From the NCBI GenBank assembly GCA_012961955.1, contig DTYH01000128.1, positions 1 through 39,619 on the forward strand: 39,619 nt of DNA, given 5' to 3'. The translations under genes and the position numbers were made by a program. The notes beneath the pieces are model-generated. The model did not search any database, was not told the DNA's origin, and saw nothing but the letters and a program-made list of their open reading frames with translations. Position 1 is the first letter of the stretch, and every line of letters begins with the position of its first letter. Below, piece after piece: positions 20,311-39,619 of this stretch. The stretch is from Desulfobacterales bacterium. Its GTDB lineage: Bacteria > Desulfobacterota > Desulfobacteria > Desulfobacterales > DTYH01.

Positions 20311-20445
20311 GGCCTATGAGCCCCGAGATACAATTATCTTGACGTACAAGAGAAATTCTACTATATGTTCAACTTGGCATCGAAAAACCAGCTTTCTATC
20401 GTCTGTTGTATCATTTCATCCAGGGAGCGAGTAAGGAGAAAGACC

Positions 20446-23193
20446 ATGAAGCATCAGCTCCTCATCACCATTGACGACAGAATTGTATCGGTCCGGCCCG
20501 GTACCACCATCCTCGAGGCAGCGCATCTGGCGGGGATCCGTATCCCGACCCTCTGTCACCACCCTGCTGTCAGGCCCAGCGGCTCCTGCCGTTTGTGCGC
20601 AGTGGAAGTGGGAGACTACCGTGGACTCCCGGCCGCCTGCACAACCCCTGTTGAAGACGGGATGCGGGTGTGGACCGTTACTCCCAAGGTGAAGAGCTTC
20701 CGGAAAGAAATGCTCCGGTTGATCCTCGAAGATCTACCGCCTGACTATTTCGAGACGGCAGTCGTGGGAAGTTACGAGCTCCACGAGGTCGCGAAGATGA
20801 TCGGCCTAGACGGTGCGCTTCCGTCGGGCGGTCGTTCGAGACGTTCCTATCAACCGGGCGGGCCCTTCTTCCACCGTGATTATGAGCTTTGCGTTCGTTG
20901 TGGCCGTTGCGTCAGAATCTGTCACGAAGTTCGTGGAGCCAAGGCCATTGTTTTCCGAGAACTGGAAGGAAAACAAGAAGTGGGCACACCTTTCAATCGC
21001 CCCCTGGAGGACGCGGGATGCGAGTTTTGCGGGGCGTGCGTCGATGCGTGTCCCACTGGTGCCCTCAGAGACACCAAGGACCGGCGCCCTTCCAACGGCA
21101 ATGCCGTCCTGGTTAACCTTAGCGGACCCTCCCCGAGGACGCCGCCTCTGAAGCTTGCTTTGGAAAGCGGTAGCGAAATCAAGTTCACTATCTGCCCGTA
21201 TTGCGGGGTGGGTTGCCGTTTAGCGTGTGAAGTCAGAGACGGTAAGATGATCAGTACCAGGCCGGATCCTCTGGGCCCGGCCAACGAAGGGCAGGCCTGC
21301 GTGAAAGGGAGGTTCGGTGTCGTGCAGTTTGTCCATGACAACAGCCGGCTGATACAACCCCTTATCCGCAACGGTACCAGCCTGGAGCCGACCTCCTGGG
21401 ACCATGCCTTGGAAACCGTGGCGAACGCGTTCAAACGATATCGGCCCGATGAGATAGCGGTTCTTACATCAGCCAAATGCACCAACGAGGAGAACTATGT
21501 TATTCAGAAGTTCGTTCGAGCGGTCTTGAAAACCAACTCCGTCGATCACTGTGCCCGTCTCTGCCATTCCCCCACAGTGGCTGGTCTGGTCACGGCTTTC
21601 GGCAGTGGGGCGATGACGAACACCATAGAGGACATCGGGGAGGCTTCCGCGCTGTTGGTAATCGGGAGCAATACTTCCGCTACCCACCCGGTGATCGGTA
21701 CACGGGTGCGGCGTGCGGTGTTGAACGGGGCACGTCTGATTGTAGCGAATCCTTGCGCTATCCCCTTGACAAGGTTTGCGGACGTCCATCTGCAACATCG
21801 CCCCGGTACAGATCTGGCGCTGCTCATGGGGATGGCTAGGCTCATCGTTGATGATGATCTGGTGGACAAGGATTTCGTCGCCAAGCGGTGTGAGAACTTT
21901 GAAGCGTTCCGTGAAAGCCTGGAACCATATGACCTTGAGTTTGTATCCGAGACCACCGGTGTTCCTGGGAACCTGCTAGTTCGTGCCGCACACTTGTACG
22001 CCGGGCACAAGCCCGCGACCATACTTTACGGCATGGGTATCACCCAGCACTCCCATGGCACGGACAATGTCCTTGCCGTGGCCAACCTAGCTATGCTCAC
22101 TGGCAATATTGGAAAACCCGGTTCCGGCGTGAACCCACTCCGTGGTCAGAACAACGTCCAGGGCGCTTGTGATATGGGTGGGCTTCCAAATGTCTATCCA
22201 GGTTACCAGCCCGTTACAGAGGAGGAGGTGCGGAAAAAGTTCGAGCAGGCGTGGGGCACGGGTCTTCCGGCTGAAGAGGGGCTCACGTCGATAGAGATGT
22301 TTGAAGCTGTACGAGCCGGAAAAATCAGGGCGATGTATATTATTGGGGAGAATCCGGCGCTCAGCGAACCGGACCTGAATCGCGCACGTGAAGCCCTGGA
22401 GCGTTTGGAGTTCCTGGTGGTCCAGGATATCTTCCCCTCGGAAACCACTGCCTACGCCCACGTGGTCCTCCCGGCAGCTACATCACTGGAAAAGTCCGGC
22501 AGTTTTACCAACACGGAGCGGCGTGTCCAGTGGTTTGATCGTGTGGTGGCTCCGCCAGGAAATGCTCGTCCGGATTGGTGGATCGTGACCAAGTTGGCAA
22601 AAAAAATGGGGGCCTCAGGCTTCGACTATGCGGGCGAAGAAGAGATTCTCACCGAGATAAACGGACTTACACCGAGCTATGCCGGTATCACTCCTGAACG
22701 GTTGAAAACAACGACCCTTCAGTGGCCGTGTCCCACGACGGAACATCCGGGAACCCCCATTCTCCACGCTGAGCGTTTCACTCGGGGTTTGGGACGGTTC
22801 CAACCCATCTCTTACAAGGGACCAGTGGAGATGCCCGATGAAAGCTACCCATTTTATCTTACAACGGCCAGGAGTCTATTTCATTACCATACAGGTACCA
22901 TGACCAGGAAAGTTGAAGGTCTTACCCGGCTTCTGGGTGAAGAACTGGTCGTGATCCATCCCGAGGACGGCAGGATGCTCGGGGTCGGCGATGGCGATTG
23001 GGTCCGGGTCATCTCCCGTCGTGGAGAAGTGAAGGTGCGAGCCAAGATGTCCGAGGAATTTCCGCGAAGGGTTGTGGCCATGGACTTTCATTTCGGCGAA
23101 GGCCCTGTTAATGTACTCACAAATCCAGCCCATGACCCGATGAGCAGGATACCCGAGTACAAGGTCTGTGCCGTACGGGTGGAGAAGGTGTGA
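20446..23193 (+). CDS. fdhA: Formate dehydrogenase alpha subunit (molybdopterin enzyme with N-terminal 2Fe-2S/4Fe-4S domains), Cys at catalytic position
   Basis: CHHPAVRPSGSCRLCAVEV, CVRCGRCVRICHEVRG, CEFCGACVDACPTGAL, CPYCGVGCRLACEV, DHCARLCHSPTVAGLVTAFGSGAMTN, LRGQNNVQGACDMG. Confidence 0.93.
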   Translation: MKHQLLITIDDRIVSVRPGTTILEAAHLAGIRIPTLCHHPAVRPSGSCRLCAVEVGDYRGLPAACTTPVEDGMRVWTVTPKVKSFRKEMLRLILEDLPPDYFETAVVGSYELHEVAKMIGLDGALPSGGRSRRSYQPGGPFFHRDYELCVRCGRCVRICHEVRGAKAIVFRELEGKQEVGTPFNRPLEDAGCEFCGACVDACPTGALRDTKDRRPSNGNAVLVNLSGPSPRTPPLKLALESGSEIKFTICPYCGVGCRLACEVRDGKMISTRPDPLGPANEGQACVKGRFGVVQFVHDNSRLIQPLIRNGTSLEPTSWDHALETVANAFKRYRPDEIAVLTSAKCTNEENYVIQKFVRAVLKTNSVDHCARLCHSPTVAGLVTAFGSGAMTNTIEDIGEASALLVIGSNTSATHPVIGTRVRRAVLNGARLIVANPCAIPLTRFADVHLQHRPGTDLALLMGMARLIVDDDLVDKDFVAKRCENFEAFRESLEPYDLEFVSETTGVPGNLLVRAAHLYAGHKPATILYGMGITQHSHGTDNVLAVANLAMLTGNIGKPGSGVNPLRGQNNVQGACDMGGLPNVYPGYQPVTEEEVRKKFEQAWGTGLPAEEGLTSIEMFEAVRAGKIRAMYIIGENPALSEPDLNRAREALERLEFLVVQDIFPSETTAYAHVVLPAATSLEKSGSFTNTERRVQWFDRVVAPPGNARPDWWIVTKLAKKMGASGFDYAGEEEILTEINGLTPSYAGITPERLKTTTLQWPCPTTEHPGTPILHAERFTRGLGRFQPISYKGPVEMPDESYPFYLTTARSLFHYHTGTMTRKVEGLTRLLGEELVVIHPEDGRMLGVGDGDWVRVISRRGEVKVRAKMSEEFPRRVVAMDFHFGEGPVNVLTNPAHDPMSRIPEYKVCAVRVEKV

Positions 23194-36049: not shown

Positions 36050-36985
36050 ATGCCGTCGATCGACTTTGATCTTCGCCAGCTGGAAATCTTTTGCAAGGTG
36101 GTCGAACTCAGGAGTTTTTCAAAGGCTGCTGAAGCGGTTTTCCTGGCTCAGGCTTCTGTGAGTGAAAGGATCTCCAACCTTGAGGAGGCTGTTGGCACTA
36201 GGCTCCTTGACCGGTTGGGAAGAACAGTGGTTCCCACAAAGGCCGGTGAGATCCTTTACCGACACGCCATCCGACTCCTGGAAATGAGGCAGAAGGCGCG
36301 TCTTGAACTGGAAGACTTTCTCGGGATGAAGAAGGGGGAGATACGGATAGGAGGGAGCACCATTCCTGGTGAATATATCCTTCCTGGATTAATAGCTCAG
36401 TTTCATAAAAAATACCCGATGGTCTCAGTAAACCTTATCATTGGGGATTCTAAAGATATAGTGCAACGGGTTCTGGATGGAGATATAGAACTGGGAATAG
36501 TCGGGTACAAGAAAAGCCATCCAAACCTGTTGTATCATGCGTTATGGGACGATGAGCTTGTACTTGCCATCCCTAATGACCATCGGTGGGCGCAGAGGCC
36601 TTCCGTTGCTCTCGATGAGCTTTTAAGAGAACGATTTATACTGAGAGAGACAGGATCCGGTACGCTAAAGATTACTGAAGAGTTTTTAGGGATACAGGGA
36701 ATAAATTCCCTGAACGTAGTGGCTCGACTTGGGACATCTACAGCTGTGAAGGAAGGAATAAAGGCAGGACTTGGCGTATCCCTCATCTCTCTATGGGCCG
36801 TTAAGGCAGAGGTGGAGAAGGGCATTCTAAAGGCCCTGAAGATAGACGGATTCCCCATGCACCGAAGTTTTTATCTGCTCAAACACAAAAAGAGATCAAC
36901 CTCTCCGCTATGCCAGGCCATGGTGGATTTTCTGCAGGCTACGTCAGAGGATAAGGAAGGATCAAGGGTGGGGACTAAGGAGTAA
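36050..36985 (+). CDS. LysR-family transcriptional regulator (resembles the selenium-metabolism-associated LysR subfamily)
   Basis: LRQLEIFCKVVELRSFSKAAEAVFLAQASVSERISNLEEAVGTRLLDRLGRTVVPTKAGEILY; IRIGGSTIPGEYILPGLIAQF. LysR call secure; subfamily from recall. Confidence 0.9.
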   Translation: MPSIDFDLRQLEIFCKVVELRSFSKAAEAVFLAQASVSERISNLEEAVGTRLLDRLGRTVVPTKAGEILYRHAIRLLEMRQKARLELEDFLGMKKGEIRIGGSTIPGEYILPGLIAQFHKKYPMVSVNLIIGDSKDIVQRVLDGDIELGIVGYKKSHPNLLYHALWDDELVLAIPNDHRWAQRPSVALDELLRERFILRETGSGTLKITEEFLGIQGINSLNVVARLGTSTAVKEGIKAGLGVSLISLWAVKAEVEKGILKALKIDGFPMHRSFYLLKHKKRSTSPLCQAMVDFLQATSEDKEGSRVGTKE

Positions 36986-37717
36986 GGCAGCCGCCAATAT
37001 GTTTTTTTTGCATGAGGACAAACTGTGGAAAGAGTGAAGAGGTATTCATTCCCTTTGACATTTTTGATGGTTCCAGGATGGCCCTGTGCCGTTCATCCTG
37101 GCTATTCAAGAGTTTTGACCTCACGTAAAAAAATATATTGACCCCTCCGTTTTACGGCCAGGATCGTCTGAGAAACGGAACTGGATAACCTAGTATTTAC
37201 GGCTGAGTGTTTCAAAAACACTTTTCTCCCAGAATGCTCAAGACCGTTCACAGAAGACTTTTTACGAGACCGTCAGTCTCTCCATGAGGCCAATACAATA
37301 AGTTCATGCCTTCCCGATATCGTTGACCTTTAATCGGTTTTCCCTATTAAAGACTGGTTTAAGGATCGGAAATTCCAGATTGACAAATCGGTATTCCCCC
37401 TACATTATTTGACAAAATCTTCCAATAACCTCGTCAAGGAGCCCATCGATGTATCGATTTTTCGGCTTTACCTGATCCGGCCTCAGGTTATCTACCCGGG
37501 TGCGGTAGGCACGGGGGCCAGGTCGAAGAATCGATGTCTTCCTACTACATCCAGTTGTCATTCTCGCCCAGACCGTTTTCAGCCGGGCTCACTTGTTTCA
37601 ATTGGTGCCAGGCGGAATTTGTCACTTCCGCATTGGTATATTCAGGATTCGGCTCTTATCGACATTAAGAGAAGCGGGTTTGGCCTGGTTCCCGATAGCT
37701 GTCCGCTCCATAAATCC

Positions 37718-37809
37718 GGGGGCAATGGTGCTGGGCGCCCCGCGGGCTGCAAACCCGTTGGCCCGGTCTAAAAAACCGGGAGGAGGTTCGATTCCCCTTG
37801 CCCCCTCCA
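37718..37809 (+). tRNA. Selenocysteine-tRNA-like tRNA with GCA (Cys) anticodon, 8/4-type acceptor/T branch, long variable arm, encoded CCA
   Basis: Acceptor GGGGGCAA(37718-37725)/TTGCCCCC(37798-37805); anticodon stem GCGGG/CCCGT with loop CTGCAAA; variable-arm stem CCCGGT/ACCGGG; T-arm GG(A)GG-TTCGATT-CCCC; T at 73; CCA at 37807-37809. Confidence 0.88.
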
Positions 37810-38004
37810 ACTACGAAACCATCAACTATAGGCGTAACAAAAAAAGCCATGTAATCTGATCTTCGTCTATGGCTTCTCAATTTGCCGAGACGTGCCGTGA
37901 TTTTACAGGGAGAACAGAAAGAATTGGGTTACGGATTGAGGGGGAAGCGAATAAGTTCGTGGCCGAGGGAGAAGGAGCACTAAGTTTCGGTAGAGAGGTA
38001 GAAT

Positions 38005-39324
38005 ATGGAAGCTACCAAGATTCAAAGGCTTAATGATGAGCTAAAGAACTATTTCAGCAAATACAACATGAACATCTGTTTCGCATGCGGCACTTGTGCT
38101 GGTGGGTGTCCGGCTACAGGTACTCCCGAACCGGAAGGGCTGGATGTCAGAAAAGTCATCAGAATGCTGGTTCTAGGGATGGTAGAAGATGTAACTGATT
38201 CCGATTTTCCCTGGGTTTGTACTGGCTGCGGTCGGTGTGTCTACGCTTGCCCGATGGGGGTGGACATTGTTTCCATCATGAAAAAGGTGAAGGGACTGAG
38301 ACCGCGTGACAAGGTTCCTGGGATACTCCATAAAGGCGTGGAGGCGGTTCTATCCACTGGCAACAATTTGAGCATACCTAAGGAAGATTATTTGTTCTTA
38401 ATGGCAGACCCTGGTAGGGAACTGTCTGAGGAGGAGTGCCCGGGCTTTTATGTACCGGTTGATAAGGAAGGGGCCGATATCGTGTTCTGGCCCAATTCCA
38501 AGGAGGTCTTTTCCGATAATGACGACATGAAGTGGTGGTGGAAGATCTTCTATGCGGCCACGGAGAACTGGACCATTCCATCTGAAAATTGGGAGGCGGT
38601 TGATTGGGGGCTGTTCACAGGAAATGACGAGGTGACGAAGATCCTGGCAAAACGGAAGATAGACTTCATGCAGAAATACGATATTAGAAGGATGATCATG
38701 CCCGACTGCGGCGGTGGCTCATTTGGGTGTCGTCTCGGAATGGAGGCATGCAAGGTAGAAGATCCATCGGCAGAGGTAGAATTCACCTATCTCTACGAAT
38801 ACCTTGTAGAGCTGATCAAGTCGGGCCGCATCAAGCTGGACAAGTCCGTGAACGCCGGCAAGATTTTTACCTGGCACGACTCATGTAAGCATGGCCGGGA
38901 GCTGGAGCGTGTCTTTGGGAGAGGATTTTTTGATGAGCCCCGCTGGATTATACAGCAGTGCGCAGACAATTTTGTGGAGATGTATCCCAATCGGGCCAAT
39001 AGCTACTGCTGCGGCGCTCGTGGCGGAAACTGGCCCATGCCTTTTGAAAAAGAATCAGCGTATCCTGGCCGAAGGAAGTTTGAATCTATAAAGAATAGTG
39101 GAGCCAATGTTGTTGTGGTGGGCTGCTCCAACTGCCGCGATCAGCTCATGAGACGACTTCCTAAATATTATCAAGAACTTAGGTGCGAAGTAAAGTATAT
39201 CTGGCAGCTGGTGGCTGAGTCTCTTATGATTGAACGCTGGAGTGATGAAGAGATCACCAGAGAAGAGGCAGCAGCTAAGGCTCAATGGGAGGCTCTAGGG
39301 ATCGATATTAATGAGGCGTGGTAG
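38005..39324 (+). CDS. Fe-S oxidoreductase, HdrC/HdrB (heterodisulfide reductase)-like with CCG domain
   Basis: CFACGTCAGGCPATGTPEP, CTGCGRCVYACPMGVDIV (two 4Fe-4S motifs); C-term TWHDSCKHGRE..NSYCCGARGGNWP..VVVVGCSNCRDQLMRRLPKYY. Confidence 0.85.
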   Translation: MEATKIQRLNDELKNYFSKYNMNICFACGTCAGGCPATGTPEPEGLDVRKVIRMLVLGMVEDVTDSDFPWVCTGCGRCVYACPMGVDIVSIMKKVKGLRPRDKVPGILHKGVEAVLSTGNNLSIPKEDYLFLMADPGRELSEEECPGFYVPVDKEGADIVFWPNSKEVFSDNDDMKWWWKIFYAATENWTIPSENWEAVDWGLFTGNDEVTKILAKRKIDFMQKYDIRRMIMPDCGGGSFGCRLGMEACKVEDPSAEVEFTYLYEYLVELIKSGRIKLDKSVNAGKIFTWHDSCKHGRELERVFGRGFFDEPRWIIQQCADNFVEMYPNRANSYCCGARGGNWPMPFEKESAYPGRRKFESIKNSGANVVVVGCSNCRDQLMRRLPKYYQELRCEVKYIWQLVAESLMIERWSDEEITREEAAAKAQWEALGIDINEAW

Positions 39325-39335
39325 GCGGATAGCCA

Positions 39336-39619
39336 ATGGAAAGGCATGTTACAATAGGGATAGCCGGGCATGTTGACCATGGTAAGACTGCCCTAGTTCG
39401 GTGTCTGACCGGTGTTGATACTGATCGGCACAAGGAGGAAAAACGGCGTGGTCTATCCATAGAATCGGGGATTGCCCCACTGGAGCTGACTTCCAGGGTG
39501 GAGATCGCTCTGGTAGATGTTCCAGGACATACCGATTTTCTCAAGAACACCATTCGAGGCCTGAGTAGCCTAGACATGGCTATTCTGGTAGTGGCTGCAG
39601 ACGATGGTGTCATGCCGCA
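39336..39619 (+). CDS. SelB-like selenocysteine-specific elongation factor-type GTPase, N-terminal part (runs off window)
   Basis: [96 protein letters not shown]1 and G3 motifs and SelB-like TGVDTDR..EEKRRG. Confidence 0.82.

Follow-up and report, generated by a model that had tools for sequence, protein, structure and literature searches.

A putative selC*/selB* module for cysteine-for-selenocysteine backup beside a LysR_Se-type regulator gene in a Desulfobacterales genome

The tRNA-Sec-like tRNA-Cys of Desulfotomaculum nigrificans reportedly received the name tRNA-ReC from Vargas-Rodriguez and colleagues in 2018. Systems that pair such a tRNA gene (selC*) with a gene for a SelB paralogue (selB*) are already in the literature (PMC7609411, PMC9437257, PMC11415595), and a bulged A51a in a 4-bp T stem is a defining feature of selC* (PMC7609411). 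As summarized in PMC11415595, SelB-dependent UGA-to-Cys recoding by tRNAs of this kind has been reported in relatives, and the CysRS*/selC* system may serve under selenium scarcity (PMC9437257). Both the recoding of Sec UGA with Cys by selC*/selB* (2017-2018) and the selenium-scarcity role have been published, the latter as a proposal. In Methanococcus, the LysR_Se regulator HrsM represses Cys isogenes when selenium is adequate (PMC5322559, PMC11097638).

The window analyzed here is a 39,619-nucleotide contig (C128) from a Desulfobacterales genome. A sequence-only reading of it had claimed four features in one block, and all four were confirmed on the + strand: a LysR gene (NF040786), a tRNA gene of Sec-tRNA shape (ARAGORN and Rfam), a CCG/Hdr-type Fe-S protein gene (Pfam), and the start of a gene for a SelB paralogue (TIGR00475). 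The features are listed below.

36050..36985, + strand: LysR_Se-type transcriptional regulator (NF040786; score 294.9 bits, cut-off 250)
37718..37809, + strand: selC* tRNA (tRNA-Cys with tRNA-Sec architecture), CCA encoded; identified by ARAGORN, Rfam RF01852, family model, and covariation
37749..37751, + strand: anticodon GCA (UCA in ten sampled selC*-bearing relatives of the same order)
37784..37784, + strand: bulged A in the 4-bp T stem (selC* position 51a), the defining feature according to PMC7609411
37806..37806, + strand: discriminator U73 (Cys identity)
38005..39324, + strand: CCG-domain/4Fe-4S Hdr-like oxidoreductase (Pfam CCG and Fer4; Cys-only clade)
38707..38709, + strand: Cys235 codon TGC, at a position that is TGA in paralogues
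39336..39619, + strand: selB*, first 94 codons (TIGR00475 match); the rest lies in contig C296 (L017:98-1730)

The CCG/Fe-S open reading frame starts 196 bases past the tRNA and ends 12 bases ahead of the SelB start codon at 39336, and the contig ends within selB. Contig C296 starts with an exact 97-bp overlap with the window contig, and the joined, uninterrupted open reading frame extends the gene past position 39619, as the sequence-only reading had called for, into a SelB of 638 aa with a C-terminal winged helix. The window part matched TIGR00475 positions 1-89 and the C296 part positions 59-580, each alone being below the curated cut-off. Downstream of selB* on C296, genes for a double-cubane anaerobic reductase, an acyl-CoA-dehydratase-type activase, and YedF were identified, each above its own NCBIfam cut-off. 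The same order (selB*, double-cubane reductase, activase, yedF) was found in G022, whose SelB is 64% identical, which supports the C128/C296 join, itself based on sequence overlap only. Further, selC* adjoined nearly every intact selB* copy. The genes of the block are thus grouped in a conserved order and not by chance.

Elsewhere in the window, a gene for formate dehydrogenase alpha (20365-23193, + strand; TIGR01591, 825 bits) was located 14.5 kb upstream of selC*. Its Sec position holds a Cys codon (TGC at 21562), which makes it another Sec enzyme encoded in Cys form on this contig. Models of defense systems gave no matches.

The tRNA was called tRNA-Cys (GCA) by ARAGORN and tRNA-Sec by Rfam (53 bits, cut-off 47). 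Its acceptor stem (GGGGGCAA/TTGCCCCC) is paired at 8/8 bp, its 4-bp T stem carries a bulged A (51a), and U73 is combined with the GCA anticodon, in line with the 8-bp acceptor stem, T-stem bulge, and U73 with GCA or UCA that characterize selC*. A long variable arm, G1:C72, and an encoded CCA were also present. Since the folding energy of the single sequence was unexceptional (z = -0.94), support for the tRNA comes from family models and covariation: among 28 distinct selC* family members, 97.8% of cloverleaf cells were paired and 11 pairs had changed on both sides (0/500 shuffles). Among other loci, a selC* match without the anticodon arm (71 nt) was seen at L099:502-572, beside an otherwise long selB*. 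At L129:8524-10867, a selC*-like tRNA (55.6 bits) has as its neighbor a SelB of the canonical group in which both pocket arginines are present; this pair may be an intermediate.

Ordinary Sec machinery, for which the sequence-only reading had proposed a search, was identified in the same genome, including SelA, a normal tRNA-Sec(UCA) seen at two contig ends, and a second SelB on contig C44. Only the last 85 residues of this SelB, with the canonical S-R-K-Y motif, are present at the contig end, the remainder being missing from the assembly. With the reservation that it is a fragment, this canonical-type copy speaks against SelB*, which is encoded downstream of selC* and lies outside the canonical clade, being the only SelB of the genome, the outcome that had been named as refuting the proposal. 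In addition, four MvhD-type homologues with one in-frame TGA each were found in this genome, and its two CysRS genes are located on contigs C160 and C101.

When 116 genomes of the same order were searched with the SelB query, copies of 39-64% identity were set apart from canonical ones (about 30-34%), and SelB* formed one clade apart from canonical SelB with support of 100/100. A scan of GTDB genomes yielded about 35 further loci, several of which represent the same genomes seen again. The selC* tRNA was detected in 42/395 genomes of the phylum sample, and at least two SelB proteins were found in 20/23 of the selC* genomes searched; as exceptions, G122 (66% complete) and G237 showed one, and G225 gave a weak match only. 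The separate clade, the adjacent selC*, and the second SelB argue for the earlier suggestion that the Sec-shaped tRNA-Cys has a SelB paralogue of its own.

The anticodons in 30 loci fetched from the phylum sample were GCA (17), UCA (12), and not called (1). Along the SelB tree, GCA and UCA alternate with at least five changes by parsimony, three of them forced by well-supported branches; the window tRNA carries GCA, though the ten selC*-bearing relatives sampled in its order carry UCA. Such repeated switching is as expected if both forms share one job, and the anticodon flips without visible change to the rest of the module, which fits both forms reading UGA.

We put the probability that a selC*/selB* module for Cys-for-Sec backup is encoded here at roughly two in three; most likely it belongs to a selenium-limitation response, because a LysR_Se-type gene and the Cys form of a selenoprotein family adjoin it. 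The tRNA-Cys of Sec-tRNA shape and the paralogous SelB would act together as one module. The selC* tRNA, with its GCA anticodon, G1:C72, and U73, would be charged by ordinary CysRS. Its carrier would be SelB*, rather than EF-Tu or canonical SelB, and delivery would take place on ribosomes at UGA codons that precede a SECIS-type hairpin. When Sec-tRNA is scarce, selenoprotein mRNAs would be read through with Cys and truncation avoided. SelB* would use the same SECIS elements as ordinary selenoprotein mRNAs, and expression of the locus would be under the control of selenium. GCA does not normally pair with UGA, which counts against this reading, but UGA decoding by GCA has been reported in a relative, as outlined in PMC11415595.

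The Hdr-like gene between the tRNA and selB* had been suggested to encode either a recoded substrate or a functional partner. Its Cys235 codon (TGC at 38707) corresponds to TGA in many paralogues; the window gene itself is not UGA-coded. No TGA was found in Hdr copies of at least 62% identity (26 genomes, phylum sample), and more distant copies (47-57% identity) mostly had one. A TGA paralogue was also present in 22/26 genomes with an Hdr orthologue; the window's own genome is one of the four among the 26 in which none was detected at the threshold used. In the Hdr orthologues that adjoin a UCA-type selC* (G125 and G196; L101, read codon by codon), no in-frame TGA was present, and no SECIS-like hairpin was evident after the window Hdr codon. 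On these grounds the gene was rejected as a recoded substrate; it is a linked Cys form, and a role of the protein as functional partner is still plausible. The Hdr orthologue and selC* co-occurred above expectation in the phylum sample (11/26 vs. 42/395; nominal p about 1e-5, the 11 genomes belonging to four families only), and selC* was undetected in the other 15/26.

These data also bear on a different mechanism, in which SelB* delivers Cys-tRNA(GCA) at UGC/UGU Cys codons of mRNAs marked by SECIS-like elements, for example that of the adjacent Hdr gene. GCA pairs with UGC/UGU, the TGC of Cys235 matches the UGA site of paralogues, and the gene sits between the tRNA and selB*; nevertheless, we regard this mechanism as very improbable, given the lack of an evident hairpin past the window codon, the absence of UGA also from orthologues by UCA-type selC*, and the 15 orthologue-bearing genomes without detected selC*. 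Moreover, SECIS elements do not appear to be maintained in Cys-FdhA genes near selB*, where retention equaled the gene-wide synonymous average for recent paralogues.

Turning to the neighborhood, the window LysR matched NF040786 ("selenium metabolism-associated LysR") above the cut-off in a genome that decodes Sec and was assigned to LysR_Se, a subfamily that the sequence-only reading had not recognized. LysR proteins of 64-65% identity were also encoded near selB* in L098 and L152. However, a LysR relative was nearby in only 5/41 surveyed loci, only three of them close, which counts against the reading as a selenium response. Families recurring around selB* included double-cubane reductase, activase, HdrA, MvhD, CCG-Hdr, FdhAB, a HesB-like protein, YedE, and YedF. 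In three genomes, FdhA encoded beside selB* had Cys at the Sec position, and a TGA-coded FdhA was present elsewhere in the same genomes. For FdhA, CCG-Hdr, and MvhD pooled, TGA was found in 0/11 copies near selB* vs. 42/55 elsewhere in selB* genomes (Fisher p 2e-6, nominal, from hand counts of related copies that are not phylogenetically independent, with limits of 190 bits for Hdr, 120 bits for MvhD, and distance chosen after the tables had been seen). None of these three families yielded a gene whose UGA was confined to selC*/selB* genomes. A cysS* gene, which would encode a CysRS without the anticodon domain (CysRS*), was absent beside the window selB*, which is followed by the double-cubane reductase gene.

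The window SelB* has the four-domain SelB layout with a C-terminal winged helix, including an aligned WH4. EF-Tu positions 67, 216, 217, and 274 align with SelB Tyr, Asp, Arg, and Arg (PMC4150793). The pocket Arg at EF-Tu position 217 was present in 19/19 canonical SelB proteins and absent from 29/33 selC*-linked SelB proteins of the window's wider group, 23 of which have Gln; the second pocket Arg (EF-Tu 274) was kept in all aligned SelB*. Most canonical SelB proteins of the group had a residue other than Tyr at the canonical Tyr position, from which no inference was drawn. Because the first pocket Arg is often kept where SelB is linked to selC* in other GCA lineages, among them the five of family f139, its loss marks some members of the family only and is not needed for the system.

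The last winged helix (domain IV) carries the signature G-R-[TSW] in SelB* vs. S-R-K-[YF] in canonical SelB, so that SelB* may read a different element. This conserved difference would suit a system in which selC*/selB* serve not as a backup under selenium shortage but constitutively, placing Cys at the UGA codons of a distinct gene set with its own SECIS type. We consider such a system unlikely, since no UGA gene limited to selC*/selB* genomes emerged from the three families and the neighborhood is of the selenium-metabolism type.

In six SelB* proteins (L106, L109, L110, L111, L115, and L120), switch I (RGxSIE) was degenerate, with the P-loop and the last winged helix kept. This is unexplained for a translational GTPase, and these proteins may not be normal GTPases. 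In some family members, SelB* carrying selC* could have lost the elongation-factor role and act mainly as a regulator through mRNA or tRNA binding, as the loss of the motif alongside a retained P-loop and C-terminal winged helix might suggest. This seems a poor prospect, as switch I of the window SelB* still reads RRGLSIE, its DVPGH and SKAD motifs are present, and the tRNA structure is under pairing constraint.

Several selB* loci showed other irregularities. L097:8819-13141 (Eth-SRB1) contained tandem selC*-selB* copies, the second selB* being split over two reading frames. At L128:1736-3504, what follows selC* is an Hdr remnant of 65 residues and then a selB* without internal parts, a state reflecting either decay or an assembly fault. 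Two group II intron copies were located at L053:2262-10178, one of which ends where selB* is cut short. No viral SelB* copies were confirmed.

Extending the backup reading, it is plausible, though less likely than not, that the locus supplies the translation side of a bacterial selenium-starvation programme. LysR_Se would switch on Cys isoforms together with the Cys-tRNA/SelB* pair, whose pocket would have drifted from Sec to Cys, and the remaining UGA-coded enzymes would be made full-length with Cys. A link among LysR_Se, Cys isoforms, and an altered pocket was not found in the literature covered. To the published systems, the present analysis adds three things, some of which the 2017-2018 papers may already report: a selenium-type neighborhood that includes Cys forms, an anticodon that changes readily, and a pocket that is altered in some family members. 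What had been a published guess, a backup role of Sec-shaped Cys tRNAs under selenium shortage, becomes a testable prediction, based on selB* loci that lie by Cys forms with UGA-coded copies elsewhere and, in some loci, with a LysR_Se-type regulator.

Among the known systems, the selC*/selB* of Deltaproteobacteria (Mukai et al., 2017, as described in PMC7609411) shares with the window the 8/4 branch, the A51a bulge, U73, GCA, and the long variable arm, in addition to the downstream SelB paralogue and the canonical Sec machinery in the genome. As far as that description goes, the window differs in the Hdr-like gene between the tRNA and selB*, in the lack of an adjacent cysS*, and in having GCA in an order where ten sampled relatives have UCA. 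The tRNA-Cys of D. nigrificans (Vargas-Rodriguez et al., 2018, as described in PMC11415595) shares GCA, Cys identity, and SelB-type delivery; it belongs to another phylum and, by the same account, is reported to recode UGA with Cys. The CysRS*-selB*-selC* operon of some Desulfobacterales (PMC7609411, PMC9437257) likewise has adjacent selC* and selB*, as in L119 and L125, where a CysRS-like gene directly follows selB*; the window differs in its G1:C72 and GCA tRNA and in having its CysRS genes on other contigs. With HrsM/LysR_Se (PMC5322559, PMC11097638), the window shares a LysR_Se-type regulator and Cys forms of the HdrA, MvhD/VhuD, and FdhA families; the known regulation is that of methanogens.
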